Positions 1 through 52,905 of a DNA stretch of 64,000 nucleotides are shown here, in pieces (position 1 is the stretch's first letter; every line of letters starts with the position of its first letter). Below the pieces are notes generated by a model. The model saw only the letters and a program-made list of their open reading frames with translations, ran no database searches and was not told the DNA's origin. A program made the position numbers and the translations under genes. The DNA comes from Syncephalis fuscata (lineage: Eukaryota > Zoopagomycota > Zoopagomycetes > Zoopagales > Piptocephalidaceae): contig JAHLTZ010000003.1 in NCBI GenBank assembly GCA_025786725.1, positions 914,863-978,862 of the forward strand, in the 5' to 3' direction.

Positions 1-736
1 ATCAATTCAAAATAGTCGTTCCCTCCGGCCCATATTACGTATAAAGTGTTGTTGCGATTTTTGTCAATATTTGTATTAGTATTAGTGTCGGAGTTTAGTA
101 TGTTATTAAGATACAACTATAGAACAATATATATCTGTAATTATGCAGTAAAAAGCAGTATTTCATTGTTTAAACACACCTGATTCACTTGGTCTGTAAC
201 ACTTGGAATAATGTCTTTAGCCAGTGGTATGTTTGTTGGTAGGAGATTTTCGCTGGAGACGGCACCGCCAAATGCATAGTTTTCTATCTGCAAATCATCA
301 ACAAGTTCAGCTAGTCGATCGACCCAAATCGGGCCGTTACTAAATCGACCGGAAAAGTAGCAGTAATTAGGCGGGTAAAGACTTAGACTGCGACGGAAAA
401 AGTTGCCACTATCACTCATACTATCACCAAACACAACGATTCGTTTGGGAACGAGCCATTGGCGTCGCTCGTTCCTTTTTTTGCTCGAGAAATAGGCGTG
501 GTATTAAAGTAGGTGGTGGGCGACAGGATCGGCCATACAATAGTGCCATCGTTAGCTCCGTCAATCATAAGTCGCGAAATGATTTCCCGTTCATTGGTAA
601 GCTGAGGTCGGGCAGCCATTTGGTAGGCCGTAGCAGCGGTCCATACTAGCAATAGCGCCGCCCAGACTACTGCCATAGCTTGGCGGGCTATCCTATGGAT
701 GCGCCATTTAGAATTTGCTTTGAAAGCAATCAGCAT
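1..736 (-). CDS. Secreted/membrane GDSL (SGNH) lipase-esterase, partial and frame-broken
   Basis: The gene runs off the left edge of the window. Visible SGNH hydrolase blocks are VVFGDSMSDSGN (block I, nucleophile Ser) and, after an intron, VIWAGGNDYFE (block III, GGND). The intron is 179..117 (63 nt, phase 0, acceptor ctatag). The upstream part, from the Met at 736, has a hydrophobic stretch (WAALLLVWTAATA) fitting a signal anchor. The upstream frame and the GDSL frame differ by one base. They meet at a T7 run at 476-482 (A7 on the coding strand), after which PKRIVVFGDS reads correctly. Either one base is miscalled there or the gene is decaying. Family knowledge: such fungal enzymes hydrolyse ester bonds of lipids or acetylated carbohydrates outside the cell. 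The C-terminal DxxH block lies outside the window. It is divergent to its paralogue at 1359. Confidence 0.72.
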
Positions 737-8550: not shown

Positions 8551-10445
8551 CTAAGCCGGAAGGTGGAAAGAGGCTGGCATAGGTGGGCAGTCCTTGGGTG
8601 CTTCAAGATGTTCACTGAAACGATTCAAGAAAGACAGCACCACGCCGTTGGTCCATCCGAATCCTTCTTGCACTTCATACTCGCCACCAAGACCAGGAAT
8701 ACCCACTCGAGTAGCATCGTATTTTTCAAACAATGTACCCTCGTTCTTGCTGTTATTTTTGCCGTCACCTCCCGTGACAAACCAGCCGCAGTAGTTGGAG
8801 GAAATCCAGCGCTGTGCAATGTTCAACGCCAATGCAGCTCCCTCGGGTACACCGGTTTTGTTTAGGCCATAGACAACGAAATGCTCAAGGGGAGGCCAGG
8901 CATTTGGAAAGTCCCATTGCTCGCCGGATTTAACGAGTGATGTTGGTGCACCGCCCGGCAAGTCAACGGCCGGTTTAACTGAAGCAACCAAACGTGATGC
9001 CTCCTGTTTAGTAAAATGGCTTGGATCAGCGGCGCCAGACCAAAGTGGTACAATATTTGATGGATAGAATTTGGTGTTTTGCTGGTGACTAGTTAAGTTA
9101 AAATCATACCATTGCGCATCCTTTTCCGACCAAAAATAATCTTGAATGGCTTGCTGTCTGACCTTGGCCGCATTTTCATACCGTGCTTTAGTACGTTTAC
9201 AGCCAACACGTGCTGCAAAATCGGCAATGGCTTGTTCATTCATGTAAAGCAAACTGTTTAGTTCAACGGGCACCACTTGGTTAGTTGCGATACTTGGCAA
9301 CGAATGACCATCGGCAAACCAGCGTGTTGAATAGTCCCAGCCACTTTCAGCACCACTGGCCATGTTAGCAAAGTAGCTGGCCCGGCTTGATTCTGGTAAT
9401 TTTGCACCCATTTCTTTGTCTTCGCGCCATGATTCGGGTCGTGGCTGATCATTGGTGACCGAGTAAACAGCCAAACGAGCATTTGGTTTGCCTGGTGCTG
9501 ATACGGTCACTGTACGATTATGCATCCAAAAGTTATGTTCTTTTTTAAGAGCGGGAAGTGCTTTGCGCAAAAATTCCGTATCATTTGTGGCATCAAAGTA
9601 GAGTCGTACCATTTGAGTAAGTAGCGGTGGCTGCGATCGATTAAGGAAATAAATACCTATTGATTATTTCATATATTAATATCATGCTATCAGTGTTTGA
9701 ATTGTATTACTTACGAGCACCGTTGGGTACAAATCCGTATTCGTTAACATAATCCATGGCATTTTCAATCATGCCTTTGACTGTCTGGTTCATTCCACTG
9801 ATCAGCAGGCCTTCCATAGTAAAGTAAGAGTCCCAGTAATAAAATTCTCGGAATCTTCCACCTGGCACAACAAACGGATGTCGTGCTGGTAGGGCGGAAG
9901 AGGCGCAGCCTTTACAGATTGCCTCTTCATGAAAGACACGACCAAGCTTTTTCCATTTCTTATGAATGGCATGTGCAAAGTGGCGGAGATTTTCGTCTTT
10001 AATTTTGGTAAGGAAAGCGGGATTTTCTTGATAGTCGGTCAGATTGGCGGGTGCAATTTCAGCGCCAGGCGGTAAGAAATTGGCATCTACGAATGCCTTT
10101 ACTTGCTCTTTTGTTGGCTTTTCAGGCAATGCATCAAAGGCCGACAATACTTGAGCCAACGGTTTAGAAGTGGGCTGATCAACAAAATACTAGATATCCA
10201 TTAAAATAAGTAACTATGGCCAATTAGCTAAACTGTATAATACTAACCTTAGAATCCTTTTCTAGATGTGCCGACTGCACAACATCTAAAATCTTGCCTG
10301 GACAGTACAGTGGCACATCACATCCATTGTGATGTTCGGCACTGCTACCAACATGCCATGTACTGCTCAGTACAAGTGTGGCGGCCAATAAACCAGCGTT
10401 AATTCTGGATAGTAAAGGCATAATTTGGATAGTATGTCGGTACAA
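8551..10445 (-). CDS. Trehalase (GH37), secreted
   Basis: Three exons: 10445..10248, 10189..9715, 9656..8551, with introns 10247..10190 and 9714..9657. Joined, they give a protein of about 590 aa. The second Met (10421) begins a good signal peptide (MPLLSRINAGLLAATLVLSS) and is the likelier start. Both GH37 signatures are present: PGGRFREFYYWDSY and QWDFPNAWPP, plus the Gly-rich GLGGEYEVQEGFGWTNG near the C-terminus. ARIYFLNRSQPPLLTQM across the second intron is also typical. Family knowledge: an inverting alpha,alpha-trehalase that hydrolyses trehalose to two glucoses. The signal peptide and lack of the N-terminal regulatory region of neutral trehalases point to the acid/extracellular type. 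Several N-glycosylation sites (NRT, NLT, NKT, NNS) are visible. The gene appears intact. Confidence 0.95.
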
Positions 10446-12614: not shown

Positions 12615-13435
12615 AGTCGTTTTATTGAACATGGAACTGGGTAGTGAGCGATATCGAAATTTAAAATACTTATAGATTTATTATGAGTATGCATATATCC
12701 AGTATGCATATATCCATCTTTTACCTATATCATCCCCGTTCTATTCCACATAAATATATATTATTCTATGAAATACTAGACACATTTTATTGTTTATATG
12801 CGGCAATATACTTTGCTCATTCCACTCACTCCACTATACACACTGTAGCTTTGACATGGTTTCATATGCTTTGTTACCGTACACTTATCATTCTATATAT
12901 CATTTATACTCATCTAGTCCTCCTCTATCCAAATCTGATTTTATTTTTGTTCTAGCTTTATTATTAATAAATATCGACTAATTCCGCTCATTGATCATGC
13001 ATATATGCTATTAACTTTAATATTGCTAATCTCGTTTAATATTGCATATTCATTATAATGTTTATCATATTATTATATATTGGCCATACGCTGTCTATAG
13101 CTGTTGTCGGTATAATTCCAACTCTTTTATTAATGAAAATTGACATATCGCACTTAGTTTGTTCACTGAGTTATATTGATAGAACAAATAATATGGATAT
13201 GAACGGTTATGTTTTATTAAGATTATTTATAAATAAACTAGATCATGCCAATTAGTCATGATTTTAATGTCAATCGAGCAAAGTGACGGGTATACATAGT
13301 AATAACACTTATTGTATTGATATATGCATACTAGATAATGAATCTACAATAATGAGTATTTGATGATTGATGTCACTCACTAACTACTATCATGTTCAAT
13401 AGACTTAATATTATTAAATGTTAGTCATTTGATTG
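12615..13435. mobile_element. TIR element family, copy A
   Basis: One of five long copies of a dispersed repeat of about 0.8-1 kb. The right end (from TGCATACTAGATAATGAATC near 13325 to about 13435) is the inverse of the left-end sequence seen in the other copies (TTATCCAGTATGCATATATC). Copy A's own left end is degenerate. No transposase frame is present. An internal frame at 13058-13255 (65 aa, hydrophobic) encodes exactly the same peptide as one in copy B at 33885-34082. The layout is that of a non-autonomous inverted-repeat (MITE or fold-back) element. Confidence 0.75.
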
Positions 13436-33385: not shown

Positions 33386-34333
33386 TATTTAATCATCCCA
33401 TCATCACTTATTGCTTTTTTGGAGGACAAATGGCTAACATCTAATAACGCCCAATCTATTGAACATGATGATGGGTGGTGAGTTACATCAGTCATCAAAT
33501 ACTCATCAGCATAGATTCGTTATCCAGTATGCATATATCCACCGTTTACCTATATCATTCCCATTCTGTCCCACACTACTATGTATCATTCTGCGATACA
33601 CTAGACACATTTTATTGTTTATACGCGGCAATATACTTTGCTCCTTCCACTCATTCCACTATACACGCTGTAGCTTTGACATGGTTTTATATGCTTTCTT
33701 ACCATACACTTACCATTCTATATATCATTTTATACTCATCTAGTCCTCCTCTATCCAAATCTGGTTTTATTTTTATTCTAGCTTTATTATTAATAAAAGT
33801 TGACTAATTCCGCTCATTGATCATGCATATATGCTCATTAACTTTAATATTGCTAATCTCGTTTAATATTGCATATTCATTATAATGTTTATCATATTAT
33901 TATATATTGGCCATACGCTGTCTATAGCTGTTGTCGGTATAATTCCAACTCTTTTATTAATGAAAATTGACATATCGCACTTAGTTTGTTCACTGAGTTA
34001 TATTGATAGAACAAATAATATGGATATGAACGGTTATGTTTTATTAAGATTATTTATAAATAAACTAGATCATGCCAATTAGTCATGATTTTAATGTCAA
34101 TCGAGCAAAGTGACGGGTATACATAGTAATAACACTTATTGTATTGATATATGCATATTGGATAATGAATCTACAATAATGAGTATTTGATGATTGATGT
34201 CACTCACTGCCCATCGTCATGTTCAATAGATTAAGCGTTATTAAATGTAGTCATTTGTCCCCCAAAAAAGCAATAAGTGTGATGATGTGACGATTAAATA
34301 AAACTCACCACTTGTCCCCATCTTCAATAGAAC
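33386..34333. mobile_element. TIR element family, copy B (longest inverted repeats)
   Basis: The best-preserved copy, about 950 bp. The left arm from about 33386 and the right arm ending at 34333 (CTTCAATAGAAC) are inverse over about 150-200 bp, reading inward through AACATGATGATGGGTGGTGA and TTATCCAGTATGCATATATC. Two hydrophobic frames lie inside: 33475-33807 (110 aa) and 33885-34082 (65 aa). By eye its left part is almost identical to copy C and its right part almost identical to copy A, with a switch near 33845. No transposase is visible. Confidence 0.8.
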
Positions 34334-35239: not shown

Positions 35240-37290
35240 GCAATGGTAAGTAACTAACTTAAATCAGTCACTAACTCTGCATATAATGCTTTAGATTTAC
35301 AAGCCATCAAGTATCAAGTTCAAGGACAATGACGATTAGTGTGTTAGCGGCCGGCTACCAAACAATATAACAATTAATGTTATATTGATGACTTTAGATT
35401 TAGATTACTAACTTACTAACCTGTATTGATAATTACAGCTTTATATTATAAATAAAAATCACCAAATTGTTTTAGTGTGCTAGCGGCCGGCTACACAACA
35501 TTGCAACATACTAACTTTATATGTATTGTTTTAGATTTAGGTACTTGGACACTAACACTAACACTTGTTGATTATTATAGATTTTAGATAGCCGAACACC
35601 AACATCGACACCAACACCAACACCAACATCAACACCAACACCAACATCGACACCAACATCAACACCAACATCAACACCAACATCGACACCAACATCGACA
35701 CCAACATCGACACCAACATCGGCGCCAACACCAGTACCAGCACCAACAACACCAGTACCAACACCAACAACATCAGCACCAACACCAGTACCAGCACCAA
35801 CAACACCAACAACACCAACATCGACATCAACACCAACACCAACACCGACACCAACACCGACACCAACACCGACATCGACACCAACATCAACACCAACATC
35901 GGCGCCAACACCAGTACCAGCACCAACACCAACAACATCAACACCAACGCCAACACCGACATCAACACCAACACCAACATCGACACCAACACCAACACCA
36001 ACATCAACACCAACACCAACATCGACACCAACATCAACACCAACATCAACACCAACATCAACACCAACATCGACACCAACATCGGCGCCAACACCAGTAC
36101 CAGCACCAACAACACCAGTACCAACACCAACAACATCAGCACCAACACCTGTACCAGCATCAACAACACCAACATCGACACCAACAACACCAACACCAAC
36201 AACATCAACACCAACATCGGCGCCAACACCAGTACCAACACCAACAACATCGACACCAACATCGGCGCCAACACCAGTACCAGCACCAACAACACCAGTA
36301 CCAACACCAACAACATCAGCACCAACACCAGTACCAGCACCAACAACACCAACAACACCAACAACACCAACATCGACATCAACACCAACACCAACACCAA
36401 CACCGACATCGACACCAACATCAACACCAACATCGGCGCCAACACCAGTACCAGCACCAACACCAACAACATCAACACCAACGCCAACACCGACATCAAC
36501 ACCAACACCAACACCAACATCAACACCAACACCAACATCGACACCAACATCAACACCAACATCAACACCAACATCGACACCAACATCGGCGCCAACACCA
36601 GTACCAGCACCAACAACACCAGTACCAACACCAACAACATCAGCACCAACACCTGTACCAGCATCAACAACACCAACATCGACACCAACAACACCAACAC
36701 CAACAATATCAACACCAACATCGGCGCCAACACCAGTACCAACACCAACAACATCAGCACCAACACCTGTACCAGCATCAACAACACCAACATCGACACC
36801 AACAACACCAACACCAACAACATCAACACCAACATCGGCGCCAACACCAGTACCAACACCAACAACATCGACACCAACATCAGCGCCAACACCAGTACCA
36901 GCACCAACAACACCAGTACCAACACCAACAACATCAGCACCAACATCGGCGCCAACACCAGTACCAGCACCAACAACATCAACACCAACACCAGTACCAA
37001 CACCAACAACACCAACACCAACATCGGCACCAACACCAATACCAGCACCAACAACACCAACAACATCAACACCGGCACCAACACTAACATTATTATTGTT
37101 ATTTAGATTTTAGATCGCCGGCCATGGACACATTAATGTAAGTATTATTATTATAAATAGCCGGCCGCTAGCACACTGAAACCAAATATAAAATATAAAT
37201 TCAGGACAATTGTCTACTAACGTACTAACATTGTATTTATTATTTTAGCATTGTAGGTAGCCGGCCGCTAACACACTAATCGCGATTTTA
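35240..37290 (+). other. Thr-Pro repeat locus (satellite, possible cell-surface gene)
   Basis: The core 35590-37090 is built of ACC/AAC/ATC/AGT-type trinucleotides. In one plus frame it reads unbroken as Thr-Pro/Thr-Ser/Ala-Pro-Val ([10 protein letters not shown]-like) for about 500 codons, as in fungal O-mannosylated wall or GPI proteins. No start codon lies in that frame inside the repeat. The flanks carry several TACTAAC...TTTTAG strings on the plus strand like intron 3' ends, so it could be a large exon of a multi-exon gene whose first exon I cannot identify. Inverted motifs with GGCCGGC sit at 35337 and 35473 (left) and 37158 and 37258 (right). The minus-strand Leu/Val frame is taken as a shadow. 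Confidence 0.5.
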
Positions 37291-43902: not shown

Positions 43903-44276
43903 AATAGCACAGTACTAGTTTTTACGCAAACCTCTATCATACATTTATTAGATGATGATATTGCTACATCATTCGTGCCAACGCTGAGCAGGTTAGAATA
44001 AAGACCTGACTACAAATTATCATACCATCAGTGTGCTGGTATGCACGTGCTTCAACCACCGTATGGACGTGTTCTTATTGATTTATATTGCATTTTAATG
44101 GTATAGTCCATGCAACGCAGTATACTGGTATATTAGCATAACCATGGACTTAAATAGGCCACAGTGTACGCAAAACTAACAAGTGTTGTCATCATCACAC
44201 GCCATTTTCTACCGAATACTCACTGCTACCAAACTTTGTTCATTCTATTTGTTTGCCTTAACAATTTAATATCAAC

Positions 44277-45601
44277 ATGAAGCTTTTATTGCCGTCGTTT
44301 GCACCATTATCATGGCTCTTGTGGCCACTACAGCCATGGTAGATGCTAATCCAACTCTAGCCCGTCGTGGTATGTTGCAATCACAATAAATATTCAAGTG
44401 TTATGTTTAACTAACAATGGTACTAGGTGGTAAGTTGTGATGATGGATCATTGTTTTGGTACTCACTATATGTTGTTATACACATAATAAATGCTATAAC
44501 ACACGTAAATAGCCCGTAAGTTTTGAGCATACATGATTATTGATGTTTTGGCTAACCATTGCTCATTAATTAAAATGAATAAATATAGAATTATTAGCTA
44601 AGAGTACGTTTAACATAAAACAATAAATAAAAGCCACATTCAGAATGCTAATATACCAAATCTATATTAATAGGAGGTATATTGCAATAACATTAACTAG
44701 TTTTTAGTTAACTAAACAATGTTTATGCTGCTAAATTGGCTTTGCTAGCTAGTAAGTGGCATTTTATATCAGCCAACTATATACTAATCATATGCCTCGC
44801 ATCGTTGTGTCTAATGACCTATATAATAGCTTGTAAGTAATTTTTTAATCAACCAACTATATATTAATCATATGACACGCACCGTGTGCCTAATAACTCA
44901 TATTAATAGGTCGTAAGTAATATTGTATATCAACTAACTATATACTAAGCATATATTATATATGTTGTGTGTTTGATAACTTGTGTTGATAGGACGTAAG
45001 TGACATTGGATAGTAGTTAACTAGATACTAATCATATACCGCGCATTGTGTGTGTCTAATGACCTATATAATAGCTCGTAAGTGGCATTGCATATTAGCT
45101 AACCACATACTAATCATATACCGCACATCGTGTGTGCCTAATAATCTATATAATAGTTTGTAAGTGATTTTTATTAATTTAACTAACTATATGTTAATCA
45201 TATGACACACATCGCGTGTCTAATAACTCATATGAATAGGTCGTAAGTGGCATTGAATATTAAATATTTGTATATTGAGTGTATACCATATACATTGTGT
45301 GTTTAATAACTTGTATTAATAGGTCATAAGTGGTATTGTATATTAGCTAGGTATATACTAACCATATACTATGCATTGTGTGCATCTAATGACCTATATA
45401 ATAGGCTGTAAGTAAAATTTTAATTAACCAAATATATATTAATTGTATGACACGCAACGTGTGTGTCTAATAACTCGTGTTAATAGGTTGTAAGTGGCGT
45501 TATATATTAACCAATTATATATTAATCATGTGATATGTGTTATAGCTGCTTATAAACATAGAATAACCGATACTTTCAAGGCATTAGCATTGGTAATCTA
45601 A
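44277..45601 (+). CDS. Small secreted Arg/Cys-rich peptide gene with array of 3-nt microexons
   Basis: The first exon (44277-44369) encodes a signal-peptide-like stretch (AVVCTIIMALVATTAMVDAN) ending CGTCGTG, followed by GTATGT. Then 14 tiny exons lie between introns of 57-83 nt with GT borders and TAG acceptors: 44427-44429 GTG, 44513 CCC, 44598-44603 CTAAGA, 44674 GAG, 44749 CTA, 44830 CTT, 44910 GTC, 44993 GAC, 45075 CTC, 45157 TTT, 45240 GTC, 45323 GTC, 45405 GCT, 45487 GTT. The last exon is 45546-45601. Joined in phase 1 they read ...ARRGAPKRATCRPLCRRC and on to a TAA. One unit has ATAAGT instead of GTAAGT at 45326 and may be skipped. The ATG is one base out of frame with the signal peptide (T4 run near 44283-44286). 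Paralogues lie at 59958 and 61018. No function is known; an effector- or defence-like secreted peptide is a guess. Confidence 0.6.
44752..45545 (+). repeat. Tandem array of about 82-bp intron-like units
   Basis: Ten units with starts at 44752, 44833, 44913, 44996, 45078, 45160, 45243, 45326, 45408 and 45490. Period is 80-83 bp and the last unit is short. Each starts GTAAGT (one ATAAGT), has an ATACTAATCATAT-like branch region and ends AATAG before a variable triplet. Three to four more diverged units precede it from 44430. Two alternating subtypes are seen by eye (ACCTATATAATAG and ACTCATATTAATAG ends). Confidence 0.9.
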
Positions 45602-46465
45602 TCAAATTGCTAGTTCAATAAACTTTAGGTATATATTCGGCAAAAAGCAAGGCCATTCGATAACTGCCGTCCAGTCTATTTATACATCAAGTTTTAGCCA
45701 ATGCTTCGGCTTATTCACTATTTAATCAATGGTATCAGCATATTATCAACAAGCTTGCAATTGGCCGTTCCTACTCAACTATGCAAAATTGTAGTAATAA
45801 AACATGGTTCCATTTAATTTAATTTAATTACTCATTATAGCTATGCTCGTGCTTTATTTGTATTCAGCAATCAGCAAACATTAACCAAATATTTACTGTT
45901 ATTATGTATTGATAAATAACATAGATATACACGTGTTAATAATTAACCTGACTAATGACGCAATCAAGTAATCAATGCCGAAGCATGTGTTGATGATGGC
46001 CATCGATTTTGTCAATCTCTTCTATACTGTCTTGTGATGAACGCAAAAAAAGAACGACGTGCATTAAAAAACAGCATAGGCAAGATAAGAAAGCACGAAA
46101 ACAATGCAAAGACCCAGAAGTCAGCGTAAATGTAAAAAGATGGTAAACTACTAGTGATACTGTGTCAGCCTTATAATAGCCAAACTAGGCCAAACTGTAT
46201 AGGCTTGTCAGATGCTTACTTATAACGTGTTTAGATTGATTGCCATGAATTATAGTAATGGTATCAGTGACTTTATTTAAGCTTGTAGGTCAGTACCTTA
46301 CCTTCTTGATGTAATATGGTTAATGCTTCTCACCATTATGTAGAATTTGGCCGCTATATATTTAGATTGACTGATCTAGAAGTAAAGTCTGTAATTTATT
46401 TAGTTAACTGTCCTATTTATGTCATAGCTATTACATTAAAATTAAACAATTTATTAACCATTTAG
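45602..46465. other. Intergenic region after the microexon gene
   Basis: AATAAA-type poly(A) signal near 45617 just after the stop. The rest is AT-rich without a supported frame. Confidence 0.4.
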
Positions 46466-52750: not shown

Positions 52751-52905
52751 TAGATTAACTAGATTGTAAACAATTAAACAATCTTTAACTAGATTGTAAA
52801 CAATTAAACAATCTTTAACTAGATTATAAACAATTAAACAATCTTTAATTAGATTGTAAACATATTAAACAATCTTTAACTAGATTATAAACAATTAAAC
52901 ACTTG
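52751..52905. repeat. Five-copy 30-bp tandem repeat
   Basis: Five copies with period 30-31 bp. Each contains AGATTGT (or AGATTAT) and ACAATCT, which are inverse and could form a small stem with a 10-nt loop. Confidence 0.9.

Follow-up and report, generated by a model that had tools for sequence, protein, structure and literature searches.

The window, by which we mean the whole analysed stretch of 64,000 nucleotides from the zoopagomycete Syncephalis fuscata, contains on its forward strand a predicted gene in which a signal-peptide exon is followed by a tandem array of short intron-like units separated by one-codon microexons. The parts of this copy are given below in window coordinates, with intron 1 and the numbered microexons as they were parsed. 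The list begins with a trehalase-like gene, in which two ordinary introns could be read, of 58 nt each.

8554-9612, minus strand: trehalase-like protein, 100% identical to a Syncephalis fuscata protein
44240..44276, plus strand: conserved 5' leader before the ATG, matched wholly or largely in 38 paralogs
44277..44369, plus strand: exon 1, the signal-peptide exon (MKL..VDANPTLARRG in near-identical copies)
44370..44426, plus strand: intron 1, donor GTATGT, acceptor CTAG
44427..44429, plus strand: microexon 1, GTG
44513..44515, plus strand: microexon 2, CCC
44598..44603, plus strand: microexon 3, CTAAGA (6 nt), donor GTACGT; also parsed in L056, L057 and L064-L067
44674..44676, plus strand: microexon 4, GAG, weak donor GTATAT; the least certain one
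44749..44751, plus strand: microexon 5, CTA
44830..44832, plus strand: microexon 6, CTT
44910..44912, plus strand: microexon 7, GTC
44993..44995, plus strand: microexon 8, GAC
45075..45077, plus strand: microexon 9, CTC
45157..45159, plus strand: microexon 10, TTT
45240..45242, plus strand: microexon 11, GTC
45323..45325, plus strand: former microexon GTC, followed by ATAAGT (no GT donor) and probably skipped; the 165-nt gap is also present in L064-L067
45405..45407, plus strand: microexon 12, GCT
45487..45489, plus strand: microexon 13, GTT
45490..45561, plus strand: last intron, 72 nt as in L056 and L057, probable acceptor AAACATAG; an alternative AG ends at 45545
45562..45815, plus strand: probable last exon, the first two bases of which would complete the stop codon TAA, then 3' UTR; the 3' end is estimated

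Repeats of other kinds are also present in the window. About 245 copies of an AACACC-like hexamer occupy 35595-37089, and a 510-residue Leu/Val/Met-rich ORF runs through them on the minus strand. The regions 13016-13059 and 33843-33886 have the same 19-bp tandem consensus with equal length and score and are possibly parts of a dispersed repeat. A tandem repeat with a 30-bp unit (4.9 copies, 94% matches) lies at 52755-52901.

The array of the window copy spans 44370-45561, and 13 microexons were parsed in it, twelve of 3 nt and one of 6 nt. The initial annotation of the locus had described tandem units with donor motifs, TAG ends and 3-nt spacers, all of which are present in the window sequence. 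That each unit begins with GTAAGT, as was stated there, is right for most units; the exceptions are GTACGT after 44598, GTATAT after 44674 and ATAAGT after the GTC at 45323-45325. Because of the last exception, the extra Arg residue of the peptide proposed there appears to rest on a non-GT donor. The microexon array itself stands, with 13 members in our parse instead of 14. The last exon had been placed after the AG at 45545, which is a second possible acceptor and the default choice of our parser. Judging by the sequences, a start at 45562 (AAACATAG followed by AATAACC) is more likely, because paralogs such as L056 and L057 have an acceptor there; the stop codon would then be formed as T + AA. 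AATAAA is found in the last exon at 45796-45801 and also at 45617, and the 3' UTR is common to arrayed and intronless paralogs.

A continuous frame from the signal-peptide exon, also proposed initially, is absent from the window copy: the frame of the ATG at 44277 stops at the TAG at 44340-44342, and the signal peptide lies in another frame. Exon 1 is 93 nt long in the window versus 94 nt in intact near-identical copies, which breaks the ATG frame. There are four near-identical copies of the window gene (97-99%; L010-L013, the same as L064-L067) on other contigs, some of which are small, or near contig ends. Three of them (L064, L065 and L066) have intact, open exon 1 frames and the same triplets as the window, and read GAPKRATCRPLCRC in phase 1. 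The fourth, L067, lies on a short contig, is likewise frame-broken and has several single-base losses; an assembly error is therefore possible for the exon 1 defect in the window as well. The window copy itself is frame-broken or mis-assembled.

A DNA search of the S. fuscata assembly (28.95 Mb in 299 contigs) with a query that included exon 1 gave 126 matches, the best 40 of 391 candidates being scored. Every cluster among the matches listed was taken, which gave 39 further loci. Exon 1 is present in 38 of them, and the exception, L043, is cut by a contig end. The initial annotation had raised the possibility of a plain satellite with no link to signal-peptide exons; no such satellite was seen among these loci, and this explanation was rejected on account of the exon 1 in 38 of them together with the selective conservation of splice signals described below. 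Exon 1 encodes MKLSIAVVCTIVVALVASTAMVDAKP..VRRG-like peptides, which can also be written as MKLSIAVVCT..VDA.P..RRG-like. By sequence likeness it is a signal-peptide exon, its frame is intact in 34 of the 39 copies, and the intact exon is 94 nt long (97 nt in L048, L051 and L054) and ends in phase 1. The peptides are predicted from it to be secreted and cut after RR, a reading that draws on general knowledge of signal peptides and Kex2-like sites.

In the 39 parsed loci, 6-45 microexons come after this phase-1 exon, with few exceptions 3 nt long and separated by introns of about 80 nt; 807 microexons have 3 nt and 24 have 6 nt, the parser having allowed these two lengths only. The spacer counts given below are free of this restriction. 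A 24-mer from the start of exon 1 occurs 259 times genome-wide at up to 3 mismatches (0 for the reversed control), and a protein search with the family gave at least 150 scored matches. The exon 1 and protein matches include intronless genes as well as arrayed ones. A profile search of protein databases at E 0.1 returned 12 matches, all named Syncephalis fuscata. Among these database proteins P0122, P0123 and P0131 are the intronless ORFs of L075, L078 and L076, respectively; others, such as the NCBI models P0124 and P0126, read other sequence downstream of the signal peptide, a point against the predicted read-outs.

The spacing of units was analyzed genome-wide using the pattern ATAG-spacer-GTAAGT-55..85-ATAGNNNGTAAGT, with the second spacer fixed at 3 nt. 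The first spacer is exactly 3 nt in 2350 of 2374 adjacent unit pairs. It is 4-12 nt in 9 pairs and 0-2 nt in 15 pairs, and thus the arrays do not correspond to recursive splicing with zero-nt exons, i.e., with AG abutting GT. The combination of a 4-nt first spacer with a second spacer of 3-5 nt was found once in the genome, and the reversed pattern gave 0 pairs in each genome-wide spacer search. Inside the arrays of the 39 loci, the nearest TAG or CAG is located exactly 3 nt upstream for 669 of 706 GTAAGT, and the unit length is variable, mostly 66-94 nt. The 3-nt spacing is far beyond chance, and the array feature is real and large in scale. The 818 microexons of 38 parsed loci correspond to 381 strict pairs; a rough extrapolation gives about 5000 microexons and about 235 arrays in the whole genome, figures that duplicate contigs may inflate. 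Introner-like elements are near-identical introns inserted independently into many unrelated genes. The constant 3-nt spacer speaks against independent insertion of introns at random sites, which would not yield it, as the origin of the arrays.

A profile search found 814 units in 39 sequences. Among these units the positions of the donor GTAAGT are 95.7-99.3% conserved, those of the acceptor TAG 95.0-99.4%, and those of a TAA that resembles a branch site and follows the donor by about 33 nt, 95.1-99.7%. At most of the remaining well-filled profile positions the value is 46-93%, with higher values at some poorly filled end positions. The profile was seeded with perfect-signal units and favours such units; the matches were found over the whole length. 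Judging by this conservation, selection acts on the splice signals. The three triplet bases are conserved at 35, 59 and 30%, respectively, the first and the third being the lowest of all positions. In a phase-1 frame the middle base would occupy the wobble position; it is T in 57% and C in 24% of cases, versus 40% T and 28% C at codon position 3 in intronless mature regions.

The units are clearly related tandem copies, and tandem copying carries motifs along with it. The array could accordingly be imagined as a satellite inside one long intron, with exon 1 spliced directly to the last exon and the internal splice motifs left over from duplication. For the splicing machinery, exons of 3 nt would be demanding, and their wholesale skipping is conceivable. 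However, drift would erode the splice motifs of such a satellite like any other bases, and donor, branch site and acceptor stay at 95-99.7%. The reading frame and the last exon also bear on this explanation.

The frame was assessed in 27 representative loci (12 near-duplicates were dropped) by shuffling the order of triplets within each locus. One phase-1 stop was observed versus 18.6 ± 3.5 after shuffling, and 0 of 2000 shuffles were as low; a pooled shuffle agrees (1 versus 14.1). The number of phase-2 stops, 58, is close to the 58.5 of the shuffled loci. The sole phase-1 stop among the representatives falls in the last microexons of L061 and is perhaps the natural end of its frame. L061-L063, which lie on contig C234, are nearly identical arrayed copies, and in each of them the last microexons together form a stop. 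The array is open throughout in 31 of the 34 loci with intact exon 1, the other three being L061-L063. There are no phase-0 stops in 613 triplets (6.7 expected), which was not counted as support for phase 0 as the frame, because codons of the form xTA are rare in phase 1 and this empties TAA and TAG.

At the 3' end of the array, 20 of the 39 loci have an acceptor that lies 70-72 nt beyond the last donor and is followed within four codons by a stop. The remaining 19 are either truncated there or without an AG at this distance, or the parser took a different AG. If exon 1 were spliced straight to a last exon of the former kind, hardly any mature peptide would be left. A satellite would thus encode little more than a bare signal peptide in these 20 loci; nor does it account for the avoidance of stops in phase 1, or for the coding block that intronless paralogs have at the place of the array. 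We therefore regard the satellite explanation as very unlikely, and one-codon exons joined in phase 1 as the preferred one. Some arrays are interrupted by gaps of 2-6 unit lengths between parsed microexons. In the first double-length gap of L034, GCAAGT stands at the donor place after TAG and 3 nt, and was not counted by the parser. GC donors may add a few more microexons.

Changes of the arrays are best seen in L034 and L035, which have 21 and 25 parsed microexons, respectively, and differ by 1.1% in aligned introns. L035 carries a TTC CTG unit pair that L034 does not have, and its array exceeds that of L034 by 158 nt. Two other microexons of L035 have no counterpart in L034, where the units are still there, one with the donor lost and the other with the acceptor lost; thus, of three candidate unit gains in this comparison, only the TTC CTG pair was accepted as a gain. 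Both gain or loss of units and loss of splice sites alter the peptide by whole residues. Lengthening of the peptide by a copied intron and codon, as suggested in the initial annotation, is illustrated by this one clear two-unit difference.

The triplets vary even between very similar introns: within loci, for introns that are about 2% different, the upstream triplets differ in 71% of 51 pairs (near-duplicate loci included). At matching positions of paralogs, 36 of 525 triplet bases and 414 of 15129 intron bases have changed, a frequency 2.5 times higher for triplet bases; these are pooled figures from 14 of the 17 locus pairs, with overlapping pairs left out. The ratio per pair is 0 in nine pairs and undefined in one; in seven it is about 2 to 6. 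The excess at matching paralog positions is modest and uneven, for which reason hypermutation or strong positive selection of triplets was rejected, and the faster change of triplets is only a hint of diversification. Homogenisation of introns around position-specific codons explains much of the triplet divergence.

Several signal-peptide exons run on into an open frame. Fifteen examined copies of this kind (L069-L071 and L074-L085) are intronless, with the signal peptide and the mature region in one ORF and the coding block in place of the array; the peptides they encode have 64-111 residues. L069 and L070 encode the same mature region (VPKDKDSNEDRGPIPPFGACKC...), which is longer than the others and different from them, and hence the signal-peptide exon is common to unlike peptides. 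About 1.1 kb upstream of L071 also matches arrayed copies with 78-80% identity. The 3' part of L071 has its best matches in L053, L048 and the window, and that of L085 in L049, L050 and L054; all of them start 74 nt past the last donor of the array. The predicted last acceptor lies at 72 nt in L048, L049, L050, L053 and the window. In other arrayed/intronless pairs the match starts between 64 and 94 nt from the last donor, so the last acceptor is not fixed by this comparison.

A tree of the 5' and 3' ends was built for 39 rows, with a midpoint root only; 12 arrayed copies and 1 intronless copy in which the 3' anchor was not found were left out, and L045 and L060 had been dropped beforehand. 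The intronless copies do not form one clade, and well-supported branches force at least three changes. In particular, the intronless L085 is placed inside a 100/100 clade with the arrayed L049, L050, L051 and L054. Such scattering makes conversion between the arrayed and intronless forms likely, most simply via cDNA, and with the midpoint root it may have gone in either direction.

An opposite view is that the arrayed copies descend from the intronless peptide genes, were spread by duplication and are now dead, with expression lost. Many copies are near-identical, exon 1 is broken in 5 of 39, L064-L067 lack the AG that their relatives use at the last intron, and the lost donor and lost acceptor in the comparison of L034 with L035 point the same way. 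Yet exon 1 is intact in the other 34 copies, 31 of which read open across the array; stops are still avoided and splice signals still conserved among copies that have strongly diverged, and the intronless copies are not one clade. Taken together, this makes dead copies a highly improbable explanation, slightly more so than the satellite.

The functional reading gains from comparison of peptides. A six-Cys pattern, CX2-3CX2-3CX4-16CX3-6CX3C, which was defined after the peptides had been seen, is present in 8 of the 15 intronless copies and has no match in the other 7. The same pattern occurs in the read-outs of L049, L050 and L051 (0, 1 and 0 of 2000 triplet shuffles, respectively) and is absent from 24 of the 27 representative read-outs. 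The predicted read-out of L051 contains QANNGDNGDACK, which would span many exons. When arrayed read-outs were aligned to intronless peptides, the score was reached by 0 of 500 triplet shuffles for L046 and L051, 2 for L047, 10 for L050 and 21 for L049; for the other 19 of the 24 compared peptides it was reached by at least 28 of 500. A shuffle of residues is stricter (L046 1, L051 18, L047 12, L050 34 and L049 69 of 500).

These read-outs bear on one more explanation, in which the array has a non-peptide role, such as splicing-dependent expression control or production of intron-derived RNAs, with the triplets serving as neutral linkers. It would be compatible with selection that concerns the splice signals only, and with the different triplets often carried by near-identical introns of one locus. 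Neutral linkers, however, need not be 3 nt long, need not avoid stops in phase 1 and yet not in phase 2, and need not spell a six-Cys framework. We consider this role the least probable of the alternatives.

The array is very probably a working gene design, and we hold with high confidence, on the grounds of sequence comparison, that in this S. fuscata family a mature secreted peptide is encoded one residue per exon and assembled by sequential splicing. The proposal of a secreted-peptide gene made of tandem introns and one-codon microexons is thus supported by the spacer counts, splice-signal conservation, phase-specific stop avoidance and intronless paralogs. Exon 1 would encode a signal peptide, mostly ending in a Kex2-like RR, and contribute one base to the codon that follows. 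The tandem array, with introns of about 80 nt between single-codon 3-nt exons, would then encode the mature peptide. With all exons in phase 1, each codon would take its first base from the end of one microexon and its other two from the start of the next, and the stop codon would be supplied or completed by the last exon. The introns would be recognised singly, by intron definition, and removed sequentially, the microexons being kept in order. Gain or loss of intron-plus-codon units and loss of single splice sites would add or drop residues and keep the frame. The products would be small, often Cys-rich peptides. Syncephalis species are parasites of other fungi, and the predicted secretion, this lifestyle and the diversity of the peptides suggest that they probably act on the host fungus.

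A wider proposal is tentative, and we give it slightly less than an even chance. It holds that this codon-by-codon architecture extends, by extrapolation, to some 200 or more genes with some 5000 one-codon exons and serves fast-evolving peptides, in which residues would be inserted or deleted through changes of units and splice sites. Since every unit is frame-neutral, skipping of any subset could give many peptide isoforms per gene, and the intronless relatives would be natural cDNA copies, each freezing one peptide.

If the genes are transcribed as predicted, they would be an extreme test of the spliceosome, with dozens of consecutive 3-nt exons and introns of about 80 nt in one pre-mRNA, and exon size limits, the order of intron removal and intron-mediated codon gain would become directly testable. 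They would also represent a route of protein evolution in which introns are carriers for adding or removing single residues. Many members of the secreted-peptide family would then be missing or misread in the S. fuscata annotation, and standard gene finders and read mappers may overlook similar families elsewhere.

No comparable gene design was found among the matches listed for literature on fungal microexons, 3-nt or one-codon exons, effector microexons and Zoopagomycota, a scope in which subscription papers are mostly not included. The available text of an S. fuscata paper (PMC7466969) does not concern the arrayed genes. Single ultra-short exons have been described: 1-nt exons in Arabidopsis APC11 (PMC4674806) and Fusarium CYP621A (PMC12940212) and a 3-bp exon in Drosophila homothorax (PMC7392893); a duplicated lipS gene of a fungus has two exons of 3 nt (PMC5639578). 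Splicing thus tolerates exons of 1-3 nt, which are reported in fungi as well. These known cases are one or two per otherwise ordinary gene, and they involve neither a whole mature protein nor a repeated intron. Intronless APC11 paralogs have been attributed to RT-mediated intron loss (PMC8831610). Stwintrons (PMC5639578 and PMC8469720) are unusual stacked fungal introns in which one splice element is interrupted by another intron; the S. fuscata units, in contrast, each have their own donor, branch site and acceptor.

The arrays resemble two families of animal genes. The internal exons of aphid bicycle genes are longer than one codon. These genes encode putative effectors and have about 17 exons on average, with small internal exons nearly all of phase 2 (PMC9168663). 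Many small internal exons of nearly one phase and putative effector products are common to both; bicycle genes are an animal family with phase 2, whereas the S. fuscata arrays are in phase 1. The microexons of schistosome microexon genes (MEGs) measure from several to tens of nt. The 12 matches of the profile search at E 0.1 include no schistosome protein; this search needs shared 5-residue words and could let remote homology escape. MEGs have many very short exons, and their products carry signal peptides, are secreted by the parasite and form a dynamic repertoire, as stated in PMC5825161. The S. fuscata arrays are similar to them in having a signal-peptide first exon and very short exons with lengths that are multiples of 3, but differ from them in exon length (3 nt), in the single phase shared by all exons and in having introns that are copies of one another in tandem.
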